Of a stretch of DNA of 10,378 nt, positions 1-10,378 are shown piece by piece; positions within the stretch are counted from its first letter, which is position 1; each line of letters starts with the position of its first letter. The stretch is from the NCBI GenBank assembly GCA_002385675.1, contig DGDY01000023.1:1-10378 (forward strand), in the 5' to 3' direction. Origin of the DNA: Anaerolineales bacterium UBA3940 (lineage in GTDB: Bacteria > Chloroflexota > Anaerolineae > Aggregatilineales > UBA3940). The notes under the pieces were generated by a model. That model was not told where the DNA came from. It did not search any database and saw only the letters and a program-made list of their open reading frames with translations. The translations under genes were made by a program, and so were the position numbers.

Positions 1-19
1 AGATGTGTATAAGAGACAG
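1..19 (+). other. Tn5/Nextera mosaic-end adapter (sequencing artefact)
   Basis: The first 19 bases are exactly AGATGTGTATAAGAGACAG, the Tn5 mosaic end used in transposase-based library preparation. It is not native sequence. Native DNA begins at about base 20. Because the window starts exactly with the adapter, this is a contig end, and nothing can be said about what lies to the left in the genome. Confidence 0.97.
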
Positions 20-72
20 GTCATGGACGGCGATTGAATGAGGAATGCCCCCTCCCCGGGGGCAAGGTGTGC

Positions 73-143
73 CTGGGAGAGGGGCGCTGAGTGACATATC
101 TTCCCCTCTCCCAGCGACCGCGGGTCGCGACCGGGAGAGGGGG
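73..143. repeat. Intergenic C/G-rich palindromic repeat with two competing hairpins
   Basis: The block CCCCTCTCCC (103-112) can pair with either of two arms. On the left it pairs with GGGAGAGGGG (75-84), and with flanking bases this gives a perfect 12-bp stem 73-84/103-114. On the right it pairs with GGGAGAGGGG (133-142), enclosing an inner hairpin GCGACC-GCG-GGTCGC (114-128). The two folds exclude each other. The element lies just beyond the stop codon of the minus-strand flavin reductase gene, so it would be transcribed at that gene's 3' end and could act as a terminator or mRNA-stabilising structure, although no U-tract follows. The GCGACC/GGTCGC core recurs near 5750-5766, which suggests a dispersed repeat family. 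Confidence 0.7.
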
Positions 144-162
144 CTAGGGGGTGAGGGTAACT

Positions 163-675
163 CTAATCATCCTCCGCCAGGGCGCGGTACTCGCCCCGGA
201 AGAACAGCAGCGGCCTGGCGTTGTCGTCTGCACGGTAGACGTGCGTGACCTCGCCCAGCACGATCCAGTGATCCCCGCCCTCATAGACCTCGTAGCGGCG
301 GCAGCCGACAGCGCCGATCGCGCCTGCCAGGAGCGGGCCGCCCTCCCACTGCACGAACTCGAAGGCCGGTGGCGGGATCTCGTCATTCCAAAAACCGGCG
401 AAATAGTTGGAAAGCGCCTCCTGCGTCTCGGAGAGGAAGCTCAGCGTGAAGCCCGGCGCTTCCAGCAATGGCCGGCTGATATTTGCCTCTTTGCCCACAC
501 ACACAAGGATAAGCGTTGGTTCCAGTGAAACCGAGGTGACGGCGTTGGCCGTCATCCCGATGATCTCGTCGTCGTCCGTAGCAACAGCCAGCACGGTGAC
601 GCCTGTCGCGAAGAGGCCCATCGTGCGCCGGAACTCTCGCGTGTCGACAGTGGTGTATTGCTTGGTGCCACTCAT
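163..675 (-). CDS. Flavin reductase-like, FMN-binding domain protein
   Basis: This 170-residue protein belongs to the flavin reductase-like family (HpaC/RutF/Fre-type split-barrel FMN proteins). Members usually use NAD(P)H to reduce FMN or FAD and hand it to a partner monooxygenase. Family signs are the N-terminal segment FRRTMGLFATGVTVLA (residues 15-30), the FMN-contacting stretch GMTANAVTSVSLEPTLILVCV (40-60, split here as GMTANAVTSV and SLEPTLILVCV), and the late GDHWIVLGEVTHV segment (133-145). The length is normal for a stand-alone reductase. The ATG is preceded by AAGGA about ten bases upstream. The gene is transcribed away from the aldehyde dehydrogenase. A TACAAT -10-like hexamer lies at 739-734 on the minus strand, with no good -35. 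No flavin monooxygenase is visible in the window, so the partner is unknown. An alternative is an FMN-binding enzyme with its own substrate. Family assignment is secure; exact role is not. Confidence 0.9.
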   Translation of the reverse strand: MSGTKQYTTVDTREFRRTMGLFATGVTVLAVATDDDEIIGMTANAVTSVSLEPTLILVCVGKEANISRPLLEAPGFTLSFLSETQEALSNYFAGFWNDEIPPPAFEFVQWEGGPLLAGAIGAVGCRRYEVYEGGDHWIVLGEVTHVYRADDNARPLLFFRGEYRALAEDD

Positions 676-733
676 GCGTGGGTCATCCTTCCCAGTGACT
701 CACGGGCCTGCGCCCGCGGGTGAACTCTCACAG

Positions 734-793
734 ATTGTAACGCGTGCGGTCGTTTACTTCCCGCGTGCTACGGGGCCGATCCTGATCTATAAT
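734..793. promoter_or_regulatory. Divergent promoter region (putative -10 elements on both strands)
   Basis: The 250-bp space between the divergent flavin reductase and aldehyde dehydrogenase genes holds a perfect TATAAT on the plus strand at 788-793 and TACAAT on the minus strand at 739-734. Neither has a convincing TTGACA-like -35 at 16-18 bp. If the plus-strand hexamer is used, the dehydrogenase mRNA has a leader of about 125 bases. The assignment rests on -10 matches and gene orientation only. Confidence 0.4.
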
Positions 794-925
794 AAGACTG
801 TGCCGGACCATTATGCCCGCCGCCCACCCTTGCGTGCCGGGCTGTACCTGCGGTTTCCCAAAGAAACGACGATGTTTTTCCTCGGTTAGCAGTTCAGTCA
901 ACCATCCACCAGTTAGGAGAAAAGA

Positions 926-2500
926 ATGGCTGAAAAGTTTAAGATTACGTACACCACGATGTCTGTGGACGACGTGGAGCTTCATCAGGCGTTCGACGAG
1001 GCCGTCGAGCGGGTGAAGCAGATGAAAGGCCGGACCTTCCCGATGCTCATCAATGGGCGCGAGGTCGAGGCAGAGGAAACGTTCGCCGTTATCAACCCTG
1101 CGGATACACGCGAGACGCTCGTCTACTTCCAGAAGGGCACGGCAGAACACGCACGCGAAGCCATCGCTGCGGCAAAGGCGGCCTTCCCGGCATGGTCCGC
1201 CACCCCGTATGAGGAGCGCTGCCAGCTTGTCGAGCGCGTCGCCGACATGATCACCGACAACCTGATGGATCTGTCGGCGATGATGATCATGGAGATGGGC
1301 AAGAACCGCGTAGAGGCGATGGGCGACGTGCAGGAGTCGGCAGACCTGCTGCGCTACTACGCCTTCCAGATGCGTGAAAACAAGGGGTTCGTCCGCGAGA
1401 TGAACTCCTTTGGTGAGACGGACGTCAACATCAGCGTACTCAAGCCGTACGGCGTGTGGGCGGTTATCTCGCCATTCAACTTCCCGCTGGCGCTAGCCGC
1501 CGGGCCGGTCGCGGCGGCGCTGGTCACCGGCAACACGGTCGTGCTGAAGCCCTCGTCCGACGCGCCGTGGACGGCCTACGAGCTGGTCCGCTACTTCATG
1601 GAAGCGGGCCTGCCGGAGGGCGCGATCAACTTCGTCACCGGGTCGGGCCGCACCGTCGGCAACGAACTGGTGGTGAACAAGGACGTGGACGGCATCACCT
1701 TCACCGGCTCGTATGACGTCGGCTTCCATCAGGTATACCGCAACTTCGCAACCGAGTACCCCAAGCCGGTTGTCGTGGAGATGGGCGGCAAGAACCCGAC
1801 CATCGTCTCGAAGAAGGCAAACCTTGACAACGCCGCGCTGGGCGTGGTGCGCTCGGCCTTCGGGATGGGCGGGCAGAAGTGCTCGGCGTGCTCGCGTGTG
1901 TACGTTGAGGCTGAGGTGTACGACGAGTTCCTCGGCAAGCTCCTCGCGAAGACCGAGGAGATCGTCAAGATTGGTAACCCGCTCGACAAGCACACCTTCC
2001 TCGGCCCCCTCGTCAACGAGAACGCCTACAACGACTACAAGCGCTTCATGGAGAAGGCTCGCCAGGATGGCGAGGTGCTGTACGGTGGCAATGTCTGCAC
2101 TGACGGCGACTTCCAGTACGGCTACTTCGTTGAGCCTGCTATCATCACCGGGCTTCCGCACGACCACGAACTGGTGCAGCAGGAGCTGTTCGTCCCGATC
2201 CTCTTCGTGAAGAAGGTTGACAGCCTGGAGCAGGCGATGAAAGAGGCCAACGACGTGCAGTACGGCCTGACGGCGGGCTTCTTCAGCGAGGATGAGGATG
2301 AGATCCAGTGGTTCCTGGACAACATCCAGGCAGGCACGATCTACGTCAACCGGAAGGCCGGCGCGACGACGGGCGCATGGCCCGGGTTCCAGCCGTTCGG
2401 TGGCTGGAAGAGCAGCGGCTCGTCCGGCAGGAACATCGGCGGCTACTGGACGCTGCTCAACTACATGCGCGAGCAGAGCCAGACCGTCATCCGCGAGTAA
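926..2500 (+). CDS. NAD(P)-dependent aldehyde dehydrogenase, P5C dehydrogenase-like
   Basis: This 524-residue aldehyde dehydrogenase superfamily enzyme oxidises an aldehyde to a carboxylate in the cytoplasm. Overall it resembles the RocA/PutA-type L-glutamate gamma-semialdehyde (pyrroline-5-carboxylate) dehydrogenases, including the roughly 40-residue N-terminal extension and the INGREV start of the core. Catalytic residues are all present: Asn185 in SPFNFP (oxyanion hole), Lys208 in LKPS (cofactor), Glu285 in EMGGKN (general base) and nucleophile Cys319 in GQKCSA. Two departures are visible. The usual E-x-F-G-P cofactor motif reads ELFVP (420-424). The loop between YVNRK and QPFGG (478-488) is about three residues longer than in the Bacillus and Thermus P5C dehydrogenases I recall, so the substrate may differ. 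The start is well supported by AGGAG six bases before the ATG. A perfect hairpin follows, and then the CoA-transferase genes, which suggests a semialdehyde whose acid product is passed to CoA activation (inference). Confidence 0.9.
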   Translation: MAEKFKITYTTMSVDDVELHQAFDEAVERVKQMKGRTFPMLINGREVEAEETFAVINPADTRETLVYFQKGTAEHAREAIAAAKAAFPAWSATPYEERCQLVERVADMITDNLMDLSAMMIMEMGKNRVEAMGDVQESADLLRYYAFQMRENKGFVREMNSFGETDVNISVLKPYGVWAVISPFNFPLALAAGPVAAALVTGNTVVLKPSSDAPWTAYELVRYFMEAGLPEGAINFVTGSGRTVGNELVVNKDVDGITFTGSYDVGFHQVYRNFATEYPKPVVVEMGGKNPTIVSKKANLDNAALGVVRSAFGMGGQKCSACSRVYVEAEVYDEFLGKLLAKTEEIVKIGNPLDKHTFLGPLVNENAYNDYKRFMEKARQDGEVLYGGNVCTDGDFQYGYFVEPAIITGLPHDHELVQQELFVPILFVKKVDSLEQAMKEANDVQYGLTAGFFSEDEDEIQWFLDNIQAGTIYVNRKAGATTGAWPGFQPFGGWKSSGSSGRNIGGYWTLLNYMREQSQTVIRE

Positions 2501-2518
2501 CCTCACTCATGATACTCC

Positions 2519-2546
2519 TGAGGGGCACGGTCAACCGTGCCCCTCA
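2519..2546 (+). terminator. Perfect 12-bp intercistronic hairpin
   Basis: TGAGGGGCACGG (2519-2530), loop TCAA, and CCGTGCCCCTCA (2535-2546) form a perfect 12-bp stem in the 67-bp gap between the aldehyde dehydrogenase stop and the CoA-transferase GTG start. No U-run follows. It could be a non-canonical or partial terminator, or an RNA processing or stability element that sets the ratio of dehydrogenase to CoA-transferase. Confidence 0.65.
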
Positions 2547-2567
2547 CACCCATCTAGAGAGAGCCCC

Positions 2568-3488
2568 GTGACAGATAAGCGCCTAACGATGAAAGAGGCC
2601 ATCGCGGAGTATGTCCACGATGGCGATTCGGTTGCGATTGAGGGCTTCACGGCCTTCATCTGCTTTGCCGCCGGGCATGAAATTATCCGCCAGGGGCGGC
2701 GCGACCTCACGCTCATCCGCATGACGCCCGACCTGATCTATGACCAGATGATCGCGGCGGGCGTCGCATCCAAGCTCGTGTTCAGCTATCTCGGCAACCC
2801 TGGCGTTGGCTCGCTGCACTGCATCCGCCGCGCCATCGAGAAGGGCGTGCCACGCCCGCTTGAGATCGAAGAGTACTCGCACTATGGGATGGTCGGGCGC
2901 TACACTGCTGGTGCGCTGAAGCTGCCTTTCTTCCCGCTGCGCAGCTACACCGGCTCCGACATCCCCGGCGCCAGCGGCGATATCCGCTGGGTGGACAGCC
3001 CGTATGAGGATGGCAAGCGCATCGCCGTTGTCCCGCCGCTCAACCCCGATGTCGCCATTGTGCATGCCCAGCGCGCCGACATGAGCGGCAACACGCAGCT
3101 CTGGGGCCTGCTCGGCATGCAGAAGGAGGTCGCCTTTGCGGCGAAGAAGGTGATCGTTGTGGTCGAGGAGATCGTCGATGAAGCGGTCATCCGCTCCGAC
3201 CCGAGCCGGACGCTGATCCCCGGCCTGATCGTCGATGCGGTGGTGCATGAGCCCTATGGCGCACATCCGTCCTACGTGCAGGGCTTCTACGACCGCGACA
3301 ACGAGTTCTACCTGAGCTGGGACAAGATCTCCCGCGATGAGGAGCGGGTCAAGGCGTGGCTGGACGAGTGGGTCTACGGCGTCGAGGACCGCGCCGCCTA
3401 CCTGGAAAAACTCGGCGCGGAGACGCTTGAACGGCTGAAACCCGGCCCCGCTCCGGCGTCGCCGGTAGACTACGGAGCGTATGCATGA
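2568..3488 (+). CDS. CoA-transferase subunit A (glutaconate CoA-transferase GctA type)
   Basis: This is the alpha subunit (306 residues) of a class I (family I) CoA-transferase, which moves CoA from a donor thioester to an organic acid. It matches the glutaconate CoA-transferase A pattern throughout: MKEAIAEYVHDGD near the N-terminus (8-20), VAIEGFTAF (22-30), DVAIVHAQRADMSGN (161-175), IPGLIVDAVVHEPYGAHPS (217-235) and EWVYGVEDRAAYLEKLG (267-283). The length fits GctA-like rather than the shorter SCOT/PcaI-like subunits. The reading frame stays open far upstream into the dehydrogenase gene, but family similarity begins only here. The GTG at 2568 follows a purine-rich GAGAGAG; an ATG at 2589 is possible but has no ribosome binding site and would trim conserved sequence. 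It overlaps the B-subunit start by ATGA. Related fold members include 3-oxoadipate CoA-transferases and the IpdAB hydrolases, so the substrate is open. Confidence 0.88.
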   Translation: MTDKRLTMKEAIAEYVHDGDSVAIEGFTAFICFAAGHEIIRQGRRDLTLIRMTPDLIYDQMIAAGVASKLVFSYLGNPGVGSLHCIRRAIEKGVPRPLEIEEYSHYGMVGRYTAGALKLPFFPLRSYTGSDIPGASGDIRWVDSPYEDGKRIAVVPPLNPDVAIVHAQRADMSGNTQLWGLLGMQKEVAFAAKKVIVVVEEIVDEAVIRSDPSRTLIPGLIVDAVVHEPYGAHPSYVQGFYDRDNEFYLSWDKISRDEERVKAWLDEWVYGVEDRAAYLEKLGAETLERLKPGPAPASPVDYGAYA

Positions 3489-4255
3489 TGCACAACGACG
3501 TCACCCCTTCTGAGATGATGATCGTGTCGGCGGCGCGGGCGATGGCGGGCGTGCGCACGGTGTTCGTTGGCGTCGGCCTGCCGAACATCGCCTGCAACCT
3601 CGCCCGGCACACCGTCGCGCCCTCGCTGGAGCTGATCTACGAGTCGGGCGTGTACGGCGCGCAGCCCGCCCGCTTGCCGCTCTCCATCGGCGACCCAACG
3701 CTGGTGACACACGCCACATCCGTCATGCCGATGGCCGACCTGTTCGGCCTGTATCTGCAGGGCGGGCTGGTCGAGGTGGCGCTGCTCGGCGGCGCGCAGA
3801 TCGACCGCTACGGCAACCTCAACACGACGGTGATCGGCGAGTACGGCAGCCCGAAAGTCCGGCTGCCGGGCAGCGGCGGCGCGTGCGAGATCGCTATCAA
3901 CGCCCAGCGGGTCTTTATCATCATGCGGCTGAGCAAGAGGTCGTTCGTCTCCAGACTGGATTTCCTGACCAGCCCGGGCCATCTGACCGGTGGGAATGCG
4001 CGCCGCGAGGCGGGTTACCCCGGCGCCGGGCCGGAGCTTGTCATCACCGACAAGGCGATCCTGAACTTCGACAACGACGACCGTGAGATGCAGCTTGTCT
4101 CGCTGCACCCCGGCGTTACGCTGGAGGAGGTGCAGGAGGAGGTCGGCTGGGATCTGCGCCGGGCCCCCGAAGTGGTCGAGACGCCCTTGCCGACGGATGA
4201 AGAACTGCGCCTGATGCGCGAGGTGCTCGACCCGGCGGGCCTGTACCGGAAGTGA
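3485..4255 (+). CDS. CoA-transferase subunit B (glutaconate CoA-transferase GctB type)
   Basis: This is the beta subunit (256 residues) that forms the active CoA-transferase with the preceding gene product. The catalytic glutamate of this family is present: Glu53 in LIYESGVYG aligns with the VESG glutamate of glutaconate CoA-transferase B, which forms the glutamyl-CoA thioester. Other family segments are VGVGLPNIA (28-36), LLGGAQIDRYGNLN (100-113), the glycine-rich GSGGAC (129-134), LTSPGHLTGG (161-170) and GPELVITDKAILNFD (182-196). Length is normal. The start codon lies in the ATGA overlap with subunit A, with GGAG seven bases upstream, so translation is probably coupled. A second ATG immediately follows. 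Retention of Glu53 supports a transferase. Glutaconate, glutarate, 3-oxoadipate or another dicarboxylate are candidate acceptors, but the sequence does not choose between them. Confidence 0.88.
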   Translation: MMHNDVTPSEMMIVSAARAMAGVRTVFVGVGLPNIACNLARHTVAPSLELIYESGVYGAQPARLPLSIGDPTLVTHATSVMPMADLFGLYLQGGLVEVALLGGAQIDRYGNLNTTVIGEYGSPKVRLPGSGGACEIAINAQRVFIIMRLSKRSFVSRLDFLTSPGHLTGGNARREAGYPGAGPELVITDKAILNFDNDDREMQLVSLHPGVTLEEVQEEVGWDLRRAPEVVETPLPTDEELRLMREVLDPAGLYRK

Positions 4256-4261
4256 GATCAT

Positions 4262-4289
4262 GGCGGAGGGGTGCCAGCGCCCCTCCGCA
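4262..4289 (+). terminator. GC-rich hairpin after the CoA-transferase genes
   Basis: GCGGAGGGG (4263-4271) and CCCCTCCGC (4280-4288) form a perfect 9-bp stem, extendable inward by a G-T wobble and one G-C pair, starting eight bases after the subunit B stop codon. No T-run follows. Its position at the end of the gene pair suggests a terminator or 3'-end stabiliser. Confidence 0.6.
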
Positions 4290-4312
4290 CCCACTCCATG
4301 TGGGAATTGCCG

Positions 4313-4356
4313 GTTCTAAGAATGCTCTAAGGTCGCTCTAATGGCGATCTAATGCC
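4313..4356 (+). promoter_or_regulatory. Four 11-bp direct repeats (G-N-TCTAA), OmpR/PhoB-like operator
   Basis: TCTAA occurs at 4315, 4326, 4337 and 4348, an exact 11-bp period. A G stands two bases before each copy. The four units are GTTCTAAGAAT, GCTCTAAGGTC, GCTCTAATGGC and GATCTAATGCC, invariant at 6 of 11 positions. On the other strand they read as a seven-base box ending TTAGA followed by four variable bases. Seven-base boxes with four-base spacers are the known layout of Pho boxes and other OmpR/PhoB-family response-regulator sites, where dimers bind in tandem on one face of DNA. Twelve bases downstream lies TACAGT (4365-4370), a possible -10, which would put the repeats over the -35 as in activator-dependent promoters. 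A second AT-rich candidate is TATATA at 4391-4396. The array ends 81 bases before the M50 protease start. The regulator itself is not in the window. Confidence 0.7.
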
Positions 4357-4437
4357 CGGACGGCTACAGTCAAAGTGACTGTCACGTATGTATATACGAG
4401 GCAGAACCACAACTATGAGGTACGTAAAGGGCTTCGT

Positions 4438-5580
4438 ATGAGAACTGGTGGGAAGAGCATTCCCCTTGGGCGCATCTTCGGTATCCCGATTGGGCTGGAT
4501 TATTCCTGGTTCCTGATCTTCGCTTTACTGGTCTGGTCGCTGAGCACAAACTATTACCCGGCGCGCTTTGGCAACTGGGCGGAGGGTCTGTACTGGGGCG
4601 TGGGCGTGCTCACGGCGGTACTGCTGTTCGTCAGCGTGCTGCTGCATGAGCTGGGGCACGCCGTTGCGGCGCTGGCGTTTCGCATCCCGGTGCGGCGCAT
4701 CCGCCTGCTGTTCTTCGGCGGCGTGGCGGAGCTTGGCGACGAAGCGCCTCATGCCGGTGGGGAGTTCCTCGTCGCGATTGCCGGCCCGGCGGTGAGCCTG
4801 CTCATCGCTATCGTGCTCGGCTTTGGCTGGCTCGGGATGACGCTGGTGAGCGCTCCGGAGCCGGTTATCGCGCTGGTCGGCTATCTGGCGTTCATCAACC
4901 TCATCCTGGCCGTGTTTAACATGCTTCCCGGCTTCCCGCTTGACGGCGGGCGCGTGCTGCGCGCCGTGCTGTGGGGCCTCACCGGGAACCTCAGCCGTGC
5001 CACGCGCATCGCTGCCAGTATCGGGCGGATCCTCGCGTTCGGCTTTATTGGCTTCGGCATCCTCCAGATTTTGACCGGCAGCCTGGCGAACGGCCTGTGG
5101 TCGGGGTTCATCGGCATGTTCCTGCAGGGCGCGGCGAGCGCAGAGGTGCAGGCACAGCAGATACGCGATATGCTGGCCGGGCGCACAGTGGGGCAGGTCA
5201 TGCGGCGTAGCTATGCGACCCTCCCCGCCGATGTGACGGTGCAGCAGGTTCTTGACGCGCACATCCTGGGGTTTGGCAACCGCTCCTTCGTGGTTACCAG
5301 CAACGGCGAGGTGGTCGGCATACTGACGCTGGAGAACGTGCAGCGCGTGCCTATTGAGAAGCGGTGGAGTACGAGCGTCGCGCAGGCGATGACGCCGCTC
5401 AACCGCACCGAGCCTATCACCCCGGACACCGGCCTGTGGGATGCGCTGCGGCAGATGGAGCTTGAACAACTCGGGCAGGTTCCGGTGGTGGAGAACGGCG
5501 AGATCATGGGGTTGCTGCGCCGTGATGACGTGTTCGCCTTCCTGTATGACCTGCGCCGGTTCGGTGCGCGCTATGCGTAG
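4438..5580 (+). CDS. Site-2 protease family (M50) metalloprotease with tandem CBS domains
   Basis: This 380-residue membrane-embedded zinc metalloprotease cuts substrates within or near the membrane, as in regulated intramembrane proteolysis. The zinc motif HELGH (70-74) lies in a hydrophobic segment, and the third zinc ligand is Asp169 in NMLPGFPLDGGR. Hydrophobic segments run at about 22-38, 54-79, 110-135, 143-163 and 195-213. Two CBS domains follow, at roughly 250-305 and 315-368; such domains commonly bind adenine nucleotides and could gate activity. The frame is open from a GTG at 4375, but the ATG at 4438 is preferred because AAAGG lies seven bases upstream and the M50/CBS family usually starts near the sequence IPLGRIFGIPIGLDYSW. 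It is alone between a hairpin and a long non-coding stretch and has the four-repeat operator upstream, which suggests stress- or signal-dependent expression. The substrate, perhaps an anti-sigma factor, is unknown. Confidence 0.9.
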   Translation: MRTGGKSIPLGRIFGIPIGLDYSWFLIFALLVWSLSTNYYPARFGNWAEGLYWGVGVLTAVLLFVSVLLHELGHAVAALAFRIPVRRIRLLFFGGVAELGDEAPHAGGEFLVAIAGPAVSLLIAIVLGFGWLGMTLVSAPEPVIALVGYLAFINLILAVFNMLPGFPLDGGRVLRAVLWGLTGNLSRATRIAASIGRILAFGFIGFGILQILTGSLANGLWSGFIGMFLQGAASAEVQAQQIRDMLAGRTVGQVMRRSYATLPADVTVQQVLDAHILGFGNRSFVVTSNGEVVGILTLENVQRVPIEKRWSTSVAQAMTPLNRTEPITPDTGLWDALRQMELEQLGQVPVVENGEIMGLLRRDDVFAFLYDLRRFGARYA

Positions 5581-5615
5581 CCTGTGCGCGGCACAGAGCG
5601 CGGATACTGGTAATC

Positions 5616-5885
5616 CGAACCCCCTCCGTCCGATGGCCGCTTTGCGGCCTACGACCACCTCCCCTTGCAGGGCTGGCGATACGACGCTTTTGCCTAGTTG
5701 ATTGCGACCGGCTAACGTCGAACCCCCTCCTGTCCCGCAGCCTGCGGCTGCGACCCTCCGGGTCGCTGGTGGGGGGTCCAGCGGTAGCCGCCACACACGG
5801 ATCCTCACACGGCGAAGGGGATGGGCTGATTAATGCGCCTTTTACAAAACCGTCGTATCCTCAGATTGCAAGGGGAGGGGTTCCG
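5616..5885. repeat. Possible MITE/REP-like palindromic element
   Basis: CGAACCCCCTCC occurs twice in direct orientation (5616-5627 and 5719-5730), each time followed by a strong hairpin: GGCCGC-TTT-GCGGCC (5635-5649) and CGCAGCC-TGC-GGCTGCG (5736-5752). A third hairpin, GCGACCC-TCC-GGGTCGC (5750-5766), and an outer pairing ACCCCC/GGGGGT (5722-5727/5772-5777) give the second unit a branched fold. An exact 12-bp inverted repeat links CCTCCCCTTGCA (5658-5669) with TGCAAGGGGAGG (5867-5878), and GGAGGGGTTCCG (5874-5885, approximate) mirrors the left end imperfectly. The boundaries are therefore tentative. No transposase gene or target duplication is seen. Confidence 0.5.
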
Positions 5886-5945
5886 CCATGCACTTAACTG
5901 TTCTACCAATCCTTAGCATGAGCTGGCCTCTAGCGGCCAAACCCT

Positions 5946-5974
5946 AACACTCCCGCAGGCCCTGCGGGAGTGTT
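5946..5974. terminator. Perfect 14-bp inverted repeat, probable terminator
   Basis: AACACTCCCGCAGG (5946-5959) is the exact reverse complement of CCTGCGGGAGTGTT (5961-5974), with one base between; in RNA the top pairs would open to form the loop. It is followed on the plus strand by GTTATA, mildly U-rich. It sits upstream of the HAD operon and could end transcription entering from the left, or be a palindromic protein-binding site. Confidence 0.55.
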
Positions 5975-6054
5975 GTTATAGTGGTAGGATTGCAGGTGAA
6001 GGTGTATTGTTTGCATGTACGACGGCAACTGCTGAAGCGAAGCGAAGGAAGTGT

Positions 6055-6729
6055 ATGATTCGCGCCCTCATCTTTGACTTTGACGGACTGATCCTCGATA
6101 CTGAGAAACCTGACTACGATATCTGGTGTGACATCTACCGCGAGTACGGGTGTGAACTGCCGCTTGACCGCTACCTCAACATCATCGGCACGAGCCTGGA
6201 ACAGGCCGGGTTCGTGCCGTTTGAGCATCTGGTGGAGTTGACAGGGCTGGACCTCGACCGCGCCGAGGTAGAAGGGCGCGCACATGCCGGGCGGCTGGCG
6301 CTCATCGACGCGCAGCCGGTACTGCCGGGCGTCGAGGCGCACATCCAGGAGGCGCGGGCGCGCGGCCTGAAGCTGGCCGTGGCGTCGAGTTCGCCTCTGG
6401 CCTGGGTGGAGCGCCATCTGCGCCGGGTCGGGCTGTTCGACTGCTTTGACGCGATTATCACGAGTGACGACGTTGAGCGTGTTAAGCCTGCGCCGGACCT
6501 GTTTGAAGCGGCGCTTGCAGCGCTCGGGGTTGCGCCGGAAGAAGCAATCGTTTATGAAGACTCGGCGCATGGTATCGAGGCGGCCCGTGCCGCCGGGATC
6601 TACGCGGTGGCAGTGCCGAACTTCCTGACCCGCCATGTGGACCTCAGCCGCGCGAACGTGCAGATAAGCTCGCTTGCGGACGTAACCCTGGGTGATCTAC
6701 TCTCAGGGATAACCAACGGGAAGAGGTAA
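6055..6729 (+). CDS. HAD-superfamily hydrolase, beta-phosphoglucomutase-like (phosphatase)
   Basis: This 224-residue HAD hydrolase of the PGMB/phosphoglycolate phosphatase-like group with a helical C1 cap removes or transfers phosphate through an aspartyl-phosphate in the cytoplasm. Motif I is DFDGLILDTE (8-17), with nucleophile Asp8 and acid/base Asp10. The motif II serine is in VASSSP (109-114), the motif III lysine is Lys144 in VKPAPDLF, and motif IV is YEDSAHGIEAA (167-177), with Glu168 and Asp169 for magnesium. The cap occupies about residues 17-85. The frame extends upstream to a TTG at 6007, but the ATG at 6055 with AAGGAA four bases before it starts right at the first beta strand and is preferred. 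It is the first gene of a tight run, and the next gene starts one base after its stop. The substrate cannot be read from sequence; sugar phosphates are likely in this group. Confidence 0.9.
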   Translation: MIRALIFDFDGLILDTEKPDYDIWCDIYREYGCELPLDRYLNIIGTSLEQAGFVPFEHLVELTGLDLDRAEVEGRAHAGRLALIDAQPVLPGVEAHIQEARARGLKLAVASSSPLAWVERHLRRVGLFDCFDAIITSDDVERVKPAPDLFEAALAALGVAPEEAIVYEDSAHGIEAARAAGIYAVAVPNFLTRHVDLSRANVQISSLADVTLGDLLSGITNGKR

Positions 6730-6730
6730 C

Positions 6731-7036
6731 ATGCACCATCACGGCTCGCACCATTCGATGGAACACGCCTATCACGGGACGTCGTTCTACGACCCCCGCT
6801 TTCAGGACGAGCACTTCGTCGGTTGGGTGGGCTTCAGCGTGCTTGCCCCCGCGTTGCTCCTCGCCGGGGCGGCGCTGCTGTGGCGGGCATTCGACGGGCG
6901 GCGGGTAGGCGAGCCGCCGCTGCGCTGGGGGATCATCGGCTTCGCCGGGCTCAGTGCAGTGGCGACCGGGGTCGCCTTCATCGCCGAAGCCGCGCGCAAC
7001 CGGCAATTATATCAGCACCACATAAGGGGAGAGTAA
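6731..7036 (+). CDS. Small His-rich membrane protein with two predicted helices (unknown function)
   Basis: I do not recognise a family for this 101-residue protein. The first 15 residues contain seven histidines (MHHHGSHHSMEHAYH), followed by an acidic and aromatic stretch and two hydrophobic segments, about 30-51 and 66-88, separated by a short charged loop with RRVGE and R65. The tail ends with another HH pair (YQHHIRG). This looks like a small integral membrane hairpin with both ends on the same side. The His clusters could bind a transition metal, but that is inference. The ATG is one base after the HAD stop, and GGAAGAGG just upstream is a fitting ribosome binding site, so translation is probably coupled to the HAD gene. 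It lies nine bases before the thiolase. Codon use and GC content look like those of its neighbours, which supports it as a real gene. Confidence 0.75.
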   Translation: MHHHGSHHSMEHAYHGTSFYDPRFQDEHFVGWVGFSVLAPALLLAGAALLWRAFDGRRVGEPPLRWGIIGFAGLSAVATGVAFIAEAARNRQLYQHHIRGE

Positions 7037-7045
7037 AGCAGCATC

Positions 7046-8296
7046 ATGCGTGACGTGGTTATTATCGATGCCGTTCGCACACCGGTCGGCAAGCACGGCG
7101 GGACGCTGGCTGCCGTCCGCGCAGACGACCTCGCCGCGATCCCGATCCGGGCGCTGCTGGAGCGTACCGGCATCGACCGGTACGAGGTCGAAGAAGTTTA
7201 CATGGGCTGCGCCAACCAGGCGGGCGAGGACAATCGCAACGTGGCCCGGATGGCGCTCCTGCTGGCGGGGCTGCCGCAGCGCGTCGCCGGGGTGACGTTC
7301 AACCGGCTGTGCGCCTCCGGGCTGACGGCGATCAATGCGGCGGCGCGGGCGATTGCCCTCGGTGAGGGTGATGTGTACATTGCGGGCGGTGTGGAAAACA
7401 TGAGCCGCGCGCCGTACTCCATGCCAAAGTCGCCGCGTGGCTGGCCCGTTGGCCACCAGACCGTCTACGATACGACGCTCGGCTGGCGCTACCCGAACCC
7501 CGCGCTGGAGGCGATGTTCCCGCTGGAGTCGATGGGCGAGACGGCGGAGAATATCTACGAGGAGATGCCGCACCTCGACCGCGAGCTTCAGGATGCCTTT
7601 GCGCTGGAGAGCCACCGCCGGGCGGTCGAGGCGATCCGCACGGGCCGCTTCAAGGACGAGATTGTGCCGGTGGAGATCCCTCAGCGCCGGGGCGACCCGA
7701 TCATCTTTGACACCGACGAACACCCGCGCTATCGCCGCGACGAGAACGGCGAGATCGTGCTGGACACCAGCATGGAGGCGCTTGCCCGGCTCAAGCCAGC
7801 TTTCCGTCCGGGGGGCACGGTGACGGCGGGCAACTCCAGCGGCCTCAACGACGGCGCGGCGGCGGTGCTGCTCATGGCCGCCGAAAAGGCCGAGCAGCTT
7901 GGCCTGCGCCCGATTGCGCGGTGGGTCGCCAGCGCGGCGGCAGGCGTGGACCCGCGCACGATGGGCCTCGGCCCGGTGCCTGCTACGCAGAAGGTGCTCC
8001 AGCGCGCGGGCGACCTGTCGATTGGCGACATCGACCTGATCGAGTTGAACGAGGCTTTCGCGGTGCAGGCGCTCGCCGTGATGGAGCTTGCCGGGTTCCG
8101 CCCGGAGCTGACGAACGTCAACGGCGGGGCGATTGCGCTCGGCCATCCGCTCGGCTGCTCCGGCGCGCGCATCTTCACGACGCTGGTGCATGAGATGAAG
8201 CGTCGCAAGGCGGCGGGTGAGGACATCCAGTACGGCCTCGCAACCCTGTGCGTCGGCGTTGGGCAGGGTGAGGCCACCATCGTCGAGGCGCTGTAA
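7046..8296 (+). CDS. Thiolase, 3-oxoadipyl-CoA thiolase (PcaF/PaaJ)-like
   Basis: This 416-residue degradative thiolase splits a 3-oxoacyl-CoA with free CoA to give acetyl-CoA and a shortened acyl-CoA. Catalytic residues are all seen: Cys89 in NRLCASG (acyl acceptor), Asn335 in NEAF, His367 in GHPLG and Cys402 in LCVGVGQG. Two segments point to the PcaF/PaaJ branch, which makes succinyl-CoA plus acetyl-CoA from 3-oxoadipyl-Co[20 protein letters not shown] (54-72) and [11 protein letters not shown] (142-152), close to the DTTIGWRF of known PcaF. About ten extra residues ([10 protein letters not shown], 228-237) stand between DEH and the LDTSMEAL segment. A more general acetyl-CoA acetyltransferase remains possible. 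The start is the only suitable ATG; GGGGAG lies about 14 bases upstream, a little far. It is third in the five-gene run, nine bases after the membrane protein. Confidence 0.88.
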
Positions 8297-8308
8297 AGGC
8301 CGCCTGCC

Positions 8309-9007
8309 GTGGCACGCGACCCGCACATCGGCACTCTGGGTGAGAACTCGCTGCACGCGGCGCTGAAAGCCGCCATCGCGCAGCCGGGGGATCGGTTCGA
8401 GGTGCCGGTGGATGGTTACGTGATCGACATCGTGCGCGGCGACCAGTTGATCGAGATCCAGACAGCTAACTTCGCGGCGATGAAGCGCAAGCTGGCGAAG
8501 CTGACCCGCAAGCACCGGGTGCATCTCGTCCACCCCATCGCCGCCGAAAAGTGGATCGTCAAATACGGCCCGGACGGCGAAACCTGGCTGGACCGCCGCC
8601 GCTCGCCGAGGCACGGCACGGTCTTCGACGTGTTCCGCGAGCTGGTCAGCTTCCCCCACCTCCTGAGGGATGGCAGCCTCACGCTCGAAGTGCTGCTGAC
8701 GCATGAGGAGGAGATCCGCGTTAACGACGGCAGGGGAAGCTGGCGGCGGCAGGGGTGGAGCATCGCCGACCGGGTGCTTGTAGACATATTGGAGCGGTAC
8801 CCGCTTGCCGGGCCTGCGGACTTCCGCGCCCTGCTGCCCGCCGATCTGCCCGAGGTGTTCACCACGCGTGACCTCGCCGACCGGCTGGGAGAGAGCATCA
8901 ACCTGATGGGCAAAATGGCCTACTGCCTGCGCGAGATGGGCGTCATCGAGCACGTGGGCAGCCGGGGCCGCTCCTACCTTTACACCTGTGGAAATGGGTC
9001 TGCCTGA
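8309..9007 (+). CDS. Conserved-looking unknown protein: nuclease-like N-terminus and winged-helix C-terminus
   Basis: I do not recognise a named family for these 232 residues. The N-terminal part reads like a restriction-endonuclease fold: Glu12 in [11 protein letters not shown], then VDGYVIDIV (34-42) with Asp40, and [10 protein letters not shown] (46-55) with Glu49 and Gln51, then a basic helix [13 protein letters not shown] (58-70). This D-x(8)-E-x-Q arrangement resembles PD-(D/E)xK nucleases with Gln in place of Lys; catalysis is unproven. The C-terminal part, [20 protein letters not shown] then [19 protein letters not shown] (184-225), looks like a winged helix-turn-helix. The GTG start has AAAGG nine bases before it and leaves 12 bases after the thiolase stop; no closer ATG preserves the N-terminal motif. 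It could be a DNA-binding regulator or a repair or defence-type nuclease. Its place between thiolase and aminotransferase genes is unexplained. Confidence 0.8.
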
Positions 9008-9020
9008 TAAGGAGTGGGCT

Positions 9021-10364
9021 GTGTCGTCAGCGTCCAATGACTCGGGCGAGAAAGAGCGCTCGCACGTTTTTTACCGGGAGCACCACCGTCGAAAACCGGT
9101 GATCTCGCATGGTAAGGGCATTTATCTGTGGGATACCGAGGGGAAGCGCTACATCGACGCCTCCGGCGGCGCGGTAGTCGTCAACGTTGGGCATGGCGTC
9201 GAGGAGATTGCCGACGCGATCCGGCAGCAGGCGGCAGAAGTGGCGTACGCGCACGCCTCGATGTTCACAAGCCGGGCGCTTGAAGAGCTTTCTGACCGGC
9301 TTGCCGAGCGCCTCCCGCTTCCCGACGCTCGCCTGTACTATCTGTCGTCCGGCTCGGAAGCGGTCGAGGCGGCTATGAAGTTCGCGCGGCAGGTGCAGAT
9401 CGCGCGCGGGTACCCCGATCGCTACAAGGTGATCGGGCGATGGCGCTCCTATCACGGCGCGACGCTCGGCGCGCTGGGGGTGATGGGCAAGCCGTCGATG
9501 CGCCAGACGTACGAGCCGATGTTTACCGATATGCCGCGCATCGAGCCGGTGTACTGCTTCCGCTGCCCGTACAACCTGGAGTATCCGTCCTGTGGCCTGC
9601 GCTGCGCCGACGCGCTGGAGGACGAAATCCTACGGCACGGGCCGGAGCAGGTGGCGGCGTTCATCGCGGAGCCGATTGGCGGGGCTACGATCGGCGCGGT
9701 TGTGCCGCCGGATGAGTACTGGCCGCGCGTGCGGGAGATCTGCGATAAATATGATGTGCTGCTGATCGCCGACGAAGTGATGACCGGCATGGGGCGCGTT
9801 GGGCGCTGGTTTGCGATAGAGGAGTGGGGCGTCACGCCCGACATCATCACGCTGGCAAAGGGTATATCGGGCGGATATCTCCCACTCAGCGCGATGGCTG
9901 CACGCGGGGATCTCGTCGAACTGGTGTGGAGTAAGCTCGGAGACTTCAATCATGGCGGGACGTTCAGCCACCAGCCGGTGGCGGCGATGGCAGGGCTGGC
10001 GACGCTCCGTTATCTGGAGCAGCATCGTCTGATCGAGCGTGCGCGGGAGATCGGGGAGGTGCTCGGGCGGAAGCTCCACCGGGCATTTGACGATCATCCG
10101 CACGTTGGCGATGTTCGCGGGCGCGGGCTGATGTGGGCGATTGAACTCGTTGCCGACCGGAGGACGAACGACCCGTTCCCCCGGTCGCACAGGCTGTATG
10201 CCCGTGTCGCCAGCAAGGCGTTTGATGACGGGCTCATCGTGTATGCAATGGGCGGCTGCGCGGATGGTCGGCTGGGGGATCATGTGATGATCTCGCCGCC
10301 GCTCGTCGTGCAGGAAGCAGAGCTTGACGAGATCATTGCGAAGCTGCGCGTGGCAGTTGATGCA
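9021..10364 (+). CDS. Class III PLP-dependent aminotransferase (3' end cut by contig end)
   Basis: About 448 residues are present with no stop codon before the adapter, and family members are about this long, so only a few C-terminal residues are missing. The enzyme is a fold-type I, class III (omega) aminotransferase, which moves an amino group from an omega- or other amino compound to a keto acid. Signs are the phosphate-binding SSGSEA (109-114), YHGATLGALG (144-153), EPIGG (217-221), Asp251 in LIADEVMTGMGRVG (248-261), which contacts the PLP ring nitrogen, the PLP lysine Lys280 in TLAKGISGGYLP, and GGTFSHQP (312-319). Four cysteines are spaced C-x2-C-x8-C-x3-C (179, 182, 191, 195). The GTG start has AAGGAG six bases upstream and follows the previous stop by 13 bases. 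Substrate is not determinable; beta-alanine, GABA-like, diamine or aminohexanoate-like amines are options. Confidence 0.9.
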
Positions 10365-10378
10365 TCTTATACACATCT
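10365..10378 (-). other. Partial Tn5/Nextera mosaic end (sequencing artefact)
   Basis: The last 14 bases, TCTTATACACATCT, equal the end of the reverse-complemented mosaic end. The five bases before them do not match the rest of the adapter, so the copy is partial. It interrupts the aminotransferase reading frame, and the residues it would encode (SYTH) are not native. Confidence 0.93.

Follow-up and report, generated by a model that had tools for sequence, protein, structure and literature searches.

A tandem 11-bp operator in front of chaperone and protease genes of Chloroflexota: a likely heat-shock regulon

Results

The window analysed here, a stretch of 10,378 nucleotides from Anaerolineales bacterium UBA3940 (Chloroflexota; contig DGDY01000023.1, positions 1 to 10,378, forward strand), carries at 4438..5580 (+ strand) a gene whose 380-residue product is a site-2 (M50) intramembrane protease containing CBS domains (Pfam PF02163, PF00571), hereafter M50-CBS protease; the start of the gene, ATG 4438, was inferred by comparison with homologues. 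Upstream of it, on the same strand, lie an operator array of four tandem 11-bp units (4313..4356) and the hexamer TACAGT (4365..4370), a probable -10 element. Read directly, the TCTAA cores of the array are exact at 4315-4319, 4326-4330, 4337-4341 and 4348-4352, with a period of 11 bp, and a G stands two bases 5' of each of them, at 4313, 4324, 4335 and 4346. This fourfold repeat, the starting point of the original prediction, occurs only once in the window when up to three mismatches are allowed and never in 200 shuffles that preserve the dinucleotide content. A seven-position unit profile, trained on 14 arrays of other genomes with the window excluded, gave the array a score of 33.7, whereas 60 shuffles of the identical upstream region that kept its base composition scored -2.0 at most; a general repeat finder run on the window did not report it. 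The spacers between the cores are not identical, which argues that the array is not a simple or recent duplication.

The original prediction had also proposed to look for 11-bp repeats in related genomes, and there they were found. Among 24 Chloroflexota genomes with relatives of the M50-CBS protease, a three-unit pattern with one mismatch matched in eight, at 20 places versus 7 for the control, and many of these matches proved to be four-unit arrays, followed at a fixed spacing by a -10-like hexamer. Four-unit arrays with no more than two mismatches were then present in 72 of the 249 genomes that make up the GTDB class to which G024, an Anaerolineae genome, belongs, at 175 places as opposed to 20 for the reversed-pattern control. 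A relaxed pattern applied to 26 apparently array-free genomes yielded four further matches (control, none), with Hsp20 downstream in three, two of them in sister-like genomes, and ClpB in the fourth. Exact three-unit matches alone do not discriminate, since across 400 Chloroflexota genomes they occurred in ten, once in each, versus seven reversed controls (4 forward, 3 reverse); two of the ten, L116 (Hsp20) and L119, which adjoins an operon of a kinase and the response regulator RR-A discussed below, clearly belong to the arrays, and the rest mostly do not. In these other genomes the conserved unit is TCTAA-pyrimidine-purine. The G ahead of the core, which had been taken as invariant, is so in the window, but its column is variable elsewhere.

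The reversed-pattern background consists in part of 11-bp microsatellites or of true arrays in another register, and none of its 20 matches (ten genomes) has Hsp20, DnaK, ClpB, GrpE or GroES downstream. One control match, L330, is a true four-unit array in another register. Two others, L326 and L329, are TTAATCT-like 11-bp repeats that precede HtrA-like genes 37-39% identical to that of L190, and may represent a further operator variant. All control loci (L321-L340) were excluded from the set of 129 distinct arrays used below, which was assembled from several pattern searches, stretches around places among the matches listed and one RR-A locus.

Within this set the position of the -10-like hexamer is strikingly constant. 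TANNNT lies exactly 11 bp past the last core in 84 of the 129 arrays and 12 bp past it in five, the window included, while every remaining offset from 0 to 16 accounts for 0-9 arrays each; the spacing of 12 bp in the window hence belongs to a minor class. A promoter scan of the window found no sigma-70 -35/-10 pair at 4200-4500. The constant distance implies that the last units occupy the -35 position, a layout expected where an activator stands in for the -35 element and recruits sigma. In this respect the arrays resemble tandem operators of the OmpR/PhoB type, in which units repeated head to tail every 10-11 bp overlap the -35 element or take its place, at a fixed distance from the -10, and arrays of five or six units (12/129) would be expected of head-to-tail oligomers. 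The Pho-like or OmpR/PhoB-like layout, the -10-like hexamer 12 bases downstream and the activator-like placement at -35, all of which had been proposed from the window alone, are thus upheld, the last of them as a matter of layout.

What these arrays control was approached through the next gene, defined as the longest same-strand open reading frame (ORF) starting within 450 bp of the array and labelled by BLASTP to clusters, representatives of which were in part scanned with, and confirmed by, Pfam; some ORFs labelled "other" may be wrong. According to the base at position seven of the unit, the 129 arrays fall into 103 of the type seen in the window, with a purine there in most units and TCTAAYR as a rule, and 26 of a second type. 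A chaperone gene comes next in 77 of the 103 window-type arrays (Hsp20 39, DnaK 20, ClpB 10, GrpE 3, GroES 2, CbpM-like 2 and Hsp90 1, "CbpM-like" being our own name for a Pfam MerR_2 protein taken as a chaperone partner) and a protease gene in six (M50-CBS 3, the window included; PF04298 zinc peptidase 2; HtrA-type trypsin-PDZ 1), the remainder being two genes for NEW3-domain proteins, 15 others and three cases without an ORF. In the last 20 stretches, picked without knowledge of the next gene (three of them for the presence of RR-A on the contig), that gene was Hsp20, DnaK or GrpE in 18. An array shared by several chaperone genes is what one would look for in a heat-shock regulon, and its position before chaperones in most window-type cases points to a heat-shock or proteostasis operator. 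The listing of downstream genes that the original prediction had suggested thus retains the M50-CBS gene as a target, but only as one gene of a regulon of which the others had gone unseen. Two further observations concern individual loci. A six-unit array (L161, G424:C22) precedes a gene for a NACHT/HEAT-repeat protein, an odd member of a chaperone regulon, and a small cysteine-rich protein (...GGPC.CDY...) is encoded after the array and before dnaK or the zinc peptidase gene in several genomes (L298:3117-3389, whose product has no NCBIfam match; L376:2466-2765; L096).

Since bacterial chaperone genes are often controlled by the repressors HrcA, HspR or CtsR, the repeats could conceivably be a repressor operator, similar to that of CtsR or HspR, from which the repressor is released on heat shock. 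CIRCE, the site of HrcA, has the consensus TTAGCACTC-N9-GAGTGCTAA, and one groES array, L184, is indeed accompanied by a perfect copy of it. However, CIRCE-like sites with no more than four mismatches were found in only two of the 103 window-type regions, the perfect one included (none in shuffles), HAIR-like sites with no more than three mismatches in three (two in shuffles), CtsR sites not having been searched for, and the constant -10 distance, which disfavours repressor models, fits an activator, as does the window scan, in which no -35/-10 pair was found. We therefore consider a repressor operator unlikely. The L184 promoter (G432), with both an 11-bp array and CIRCE, suggests that activation may be combined with HrcA repression at this groES gene.

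The second type of array, composed of TCTAACY units as a rule, shares the 11-bp period and has the -10 at 11 bp in 18 of 26 cases. Its next genes include response regulators or kinases (8), glycosyltransferases (3), only two chaperones, and others; hybrid kinases and a UbiD-like gene, named by eye, are among the targets. The loci L202, L205, L207, L211, L175, L204, L169, L192, L139, L172 and L195, in the genomes G456, G431, G427, G477 and G568, are of this type, to which a related (paralogous) regulator probably binds.

Returning to the protease, the array stands before M50-CBS genes of two other genomes (L080 in G024 and L183 in G432) and, at the L330 locus mentioned above (G435), before a more distant M50-like protease gene. 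The closest orthologues of the window protease are 87% and 69% identical to it, and of its named matches six of nine are from Chloroflexota and three acidobacterial. A profile scan of the window and 74 relatives with 38-52% identity (six of the original 80 loci were dropped, as the match lay too near the locus start) detected the array in the window and, among the relatives, at L080 alone, and six further M50 places that were checked have none. The operator is accordingly not inherent to this protease family. The original prediction was to fall if the repeats were missing before orthologous protease genes, and the outcome is mixed, L080 and the window being the only ones of the 75 scanned genes that have them. 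Its notion of an operator particular to the M50-CBS protease does not hold, and a protease-specific regulator was rejected in view of the chaperone genes that follow most window-type arrays and the absence of the array from most of the M50-CBS genes scanned. One could argue from the single occurrence among the 74 relatives, and from the window units themselves (TCTAAGA, TCTAAGG, TCTAATG, TCTAATG), the first two of which deviate at position 6, that the window array arose by chance or mutation as a tandem repeat outside the regulon. The shuffles, the variable spacers, the -10 near its expected place and the recurrence of the array before M50-type genes of G024, G432 and G435 all speak against this, and we regard such an origin as exceedingly improbable.

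As for the surroundings of the array in the window, the gene upstream of it encodes a CoA-transferase subunit (3485..4255, +; Pfam PF01144), and just 3' of its stop codon a repeat search detected a GC-rich inverted repeat with 12-nt arms and a 2-nt loop (4263..4288, +). No terminator-like site was called there; it is possible that the repeat serves as a transcription barrier between the upstream genes and the protease promoter. An apparent degradative gene cluster (926-4255 and 7046-8296) surrounds the protease gene, with an aldehyde dehydrogenase, two CoA-transferase subunits and a flavin reductase recognized by Pfam and a thiolase by eye, and a promoter of its own would separate the protease gene from these neighbours. 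All six CoA-transferase matches that carry an organism name come from Chloroflexota, and the aldehyde dehydrogenase reaches no more than 58% identity in the 301 Chloroflexota genomes searched. A 232-residue ORF at 8309-9007 has no Pfam match at E 0.001.

A candidate for the binding protein emerged from clustering the Trans_reg_C proteins of six small array genomes, which yielded one strongly conserved response regulator, termed RR-A. With a presence threshold of E <= 1e-85, and with all 72 array genomes and 59 of the 177 array-free genomes tested, RR-A is present in 60 of the former and 36 of the latter (Fisher p = 0.005). The co-occurrence with a response regulator that the original prediction had called for is therefore there, but it is loose: twelve array genomes, among them the array-rich G477 as well as G478, have no RR-A, and more than half of the array-free genomes tested do have it. 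As proof of the regulator we rejected it for this reason. More telling is the position of RR-A beside arrays, which it adjoins in six genomes. In G443, G467, G437 and G010 it is encoded less than 3 kb from an array before dnaK (0.2 such cases would be expected by a rough estimate), and in G023 and G201 an array has a small cysteine-rich gene on one side and a divergent operon of a kinase and RR-A on the other. By NCBIfam, the G023 and G467 kinases are WalK/PnpS-like.

Several observations weigh against RR-A, and in part against the regulon as a whole. The co-occurrence gives p = 0.20 and 0.02 when two subsets are taken separately, and its statistics ignore kinship and gaps in draft genomes. 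G443 and G467 appear to be sisters, such that the linkage amounts to four or five independent cases. The DNA-binding region of RR-A looks alike in genomes with and without arrays, although of the nine "array-free" genomes in this comparison three (G430, G299 and G231) have weak arrays, and a weak array occurs in G455, a genome without RR-A. The RR-A counts, and apart from the window array itself the regulon counts, come from genomes other than that of the window; two of the four units in the window begin with the atypical TCTAAG, and 24 next genes labelled "other" are only partly identified.

The nearest solved relative of RR-A is KdpE. In NCBIfam, RR-A falls below the cut-off of all of the best 25 families, including the equivalogs PhoB, KdpE, RpaB and MtrA, with its best score, 222 bits, for RpaB (cut-off 330) and 206 for PhoB (cut-off 296). 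These scores bear on the idea that the arrays are operators for a regulator of phosphate (Pho) or potassium (Kdp) genes, chaperones being secondary targets, to which the kinship with KdpE and the resemblance of core and spacing to Pho and Kdp half-sites would lend themselves. Yet chaperones, proteases and regulators make up most of the labelled next genes of the 129 arrays, no phosphate or potassium transport gene was recognized among them, the incompletely identified "other" genes aside, and RR-A does not reach the PhoB and KdpE cut-offs, so that we hold this idea to be highly improbable.

The same heat-shock operator could, on the other hand, be bound by an activator of the SARP/BTAD type instead of a response regulator, because SARP geometry fits equally well: SARPs bind direct repeats with a spacing of 11 bp, of which the last lies 8 bp from the -10, and they adapt sigma region 4 (PMC10936776). 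Of 12 array genomes tested, 10 did give BTAD matches, which were strong in eight (e.g. G478 and G007). Nevertheless, two array genomes, G023 and G201, gave no match and two more, G453 and G440, only a weak partial one (all four are drafts), and four BTAD loci (L341-L344) are without an array. We judge a SARP/BTAD-type activator to be quite unlikely, and the response regulator likely, as the protein that binds the array; RR-A is the leading, though unproven, candidate for the activator.

Discussion

The array, its -10 spacing and its recurrence before chaperone and protease genes are features of the genomes themselves. Taken together they make it reasonably probable that the array serves as operator for a heat-shock (proteostasis) regulon, most likely bound by a response regulator of the OmpR/PhoB family, with RR-A as the best candidate. 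The step from the array to the heat-shock regulon is well supported, and that from the array to a response regulator as its binder is likely; activation, heat as the signal, the family of the regulator and the identity of RR-A are what we infer beyond this. In the proposed mechanism, winged-helix activators would bind in tandem along the same face of the helix, with each 11-bp unit taking up one monomer and four units therefore two dimers. The bound activators would sit at the -35 position and recruit the sigma factor to a -10 element 11-12 bp past the last core. The regulon turned on in this way would comprise Hsp20, DnaK/GrpE, ClpB, GroES and Hsp90 plus a few proteases, including the M50-CBS protease of the window, and their joint induction would allow soluble and membrane misfolded proteins to be dealt with together. 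The activator would most likely be a response regulator of the OmpR/PhoB family, the best single candidate being RR-A, which is encoded beside a histidine kinase in several genomes.

The control of heat-shock genes is known from only a few systems, most of which rely on repressors or on a specialized sigma factor. HrcA/CIRCE, HspR/HAIR, sigma-32 and CtsR operate through inverted repeats bound by repressors, heptad repeats or a sigma factor, and their target genes are shared with the array regulon; unlike in the HrcA and HspR systems, CIRCE and HAIR are almost absent from array promoters. Tandem operators of response regulators are of a known kind, and for a response regulator that activates chaperone genes there is a precedent, cyanobacterial Rre1. 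Rre1, however, belongs to the NarL/FixJ and not the OmpR family, and we know of no four-unit 11-bp operator of the array kind for it. Among the matches listed in the open-licence literature there was no account of the motif, of such a heat-shock regulon in Chloroflexota or of a link to M50-CBS proteases.

Close parallels in layout exist among known operators. The PHO box consists of two 11-nt direct repeat units (PMC4415409) and PhoB sites overlap the -35 element (PMC3348028), so that the E. coli PHO box and PhoB-type promoters resemble the array in both respects; they differ in the core (CTGTCAT, as against TCTAAYR-like), in the number of units, of which the array has four to six, and in the targets, phosphate genes instead of chaperones and proteases. 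The KdpE site (PMC3264566), in which 5 bp separate two repeats of 6 bp, shares the 11-bp period, while having AT-rich TTTATA/TTTACA half-sites, only two units and a potassium pump operon as its target. SARP/AfsR boxes resemble the array in their 11-bp direct repeats near the -10 and in sigma adaptation, but SARPs are antibiotic regulators of actinomycetes, and the BTAD domain is absent or weakly matched in 4 of the 12 array genomes. With regard to chaperone control, the cyanobacterial Hik34/Hik2-Rre1 two-component system is reported to activate heat-induced chaperone genes (PMC9321951), and MXAN_4468, an orphan response regulator of Myxococcus, adjoins and controls groEL genes, there as a negative regulator acting through HrcA, in contrast to the system proposed here (PMC9040617).

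A more far-reaching version of this proposal would be that in Anaerolineae and related Chloroflexota a dedicated system of a kinase and RR-A runs the heat-shock response, with no heat-shock sigma factor involved, through four- to six-unit operators that replace the -35 element before dnaK, grpE, groES, clpB, hsp20, htpG and membrane or zinc proteases, the TCTAACY array being a sister operator of another regulon. We put this forward tentatively, as a possibility that may well turn out otherwise.

Collectively, our findings suggest that in many Chloroflexota heat-shock genes are switched on by an activator bound to tandem repeats, and not solely by the release of a repressor. If this is true, an activator-based heat-shock circuit that extends across a bacterial class would join those already known, and the major chaperones and the M50-CBS membrane protease would be tied to one tandem-site activator. 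The M50-CBS protease would thereby gain a physiological assignment, namely to proteostasis, and an understudied phylum a sharp and testable motif.
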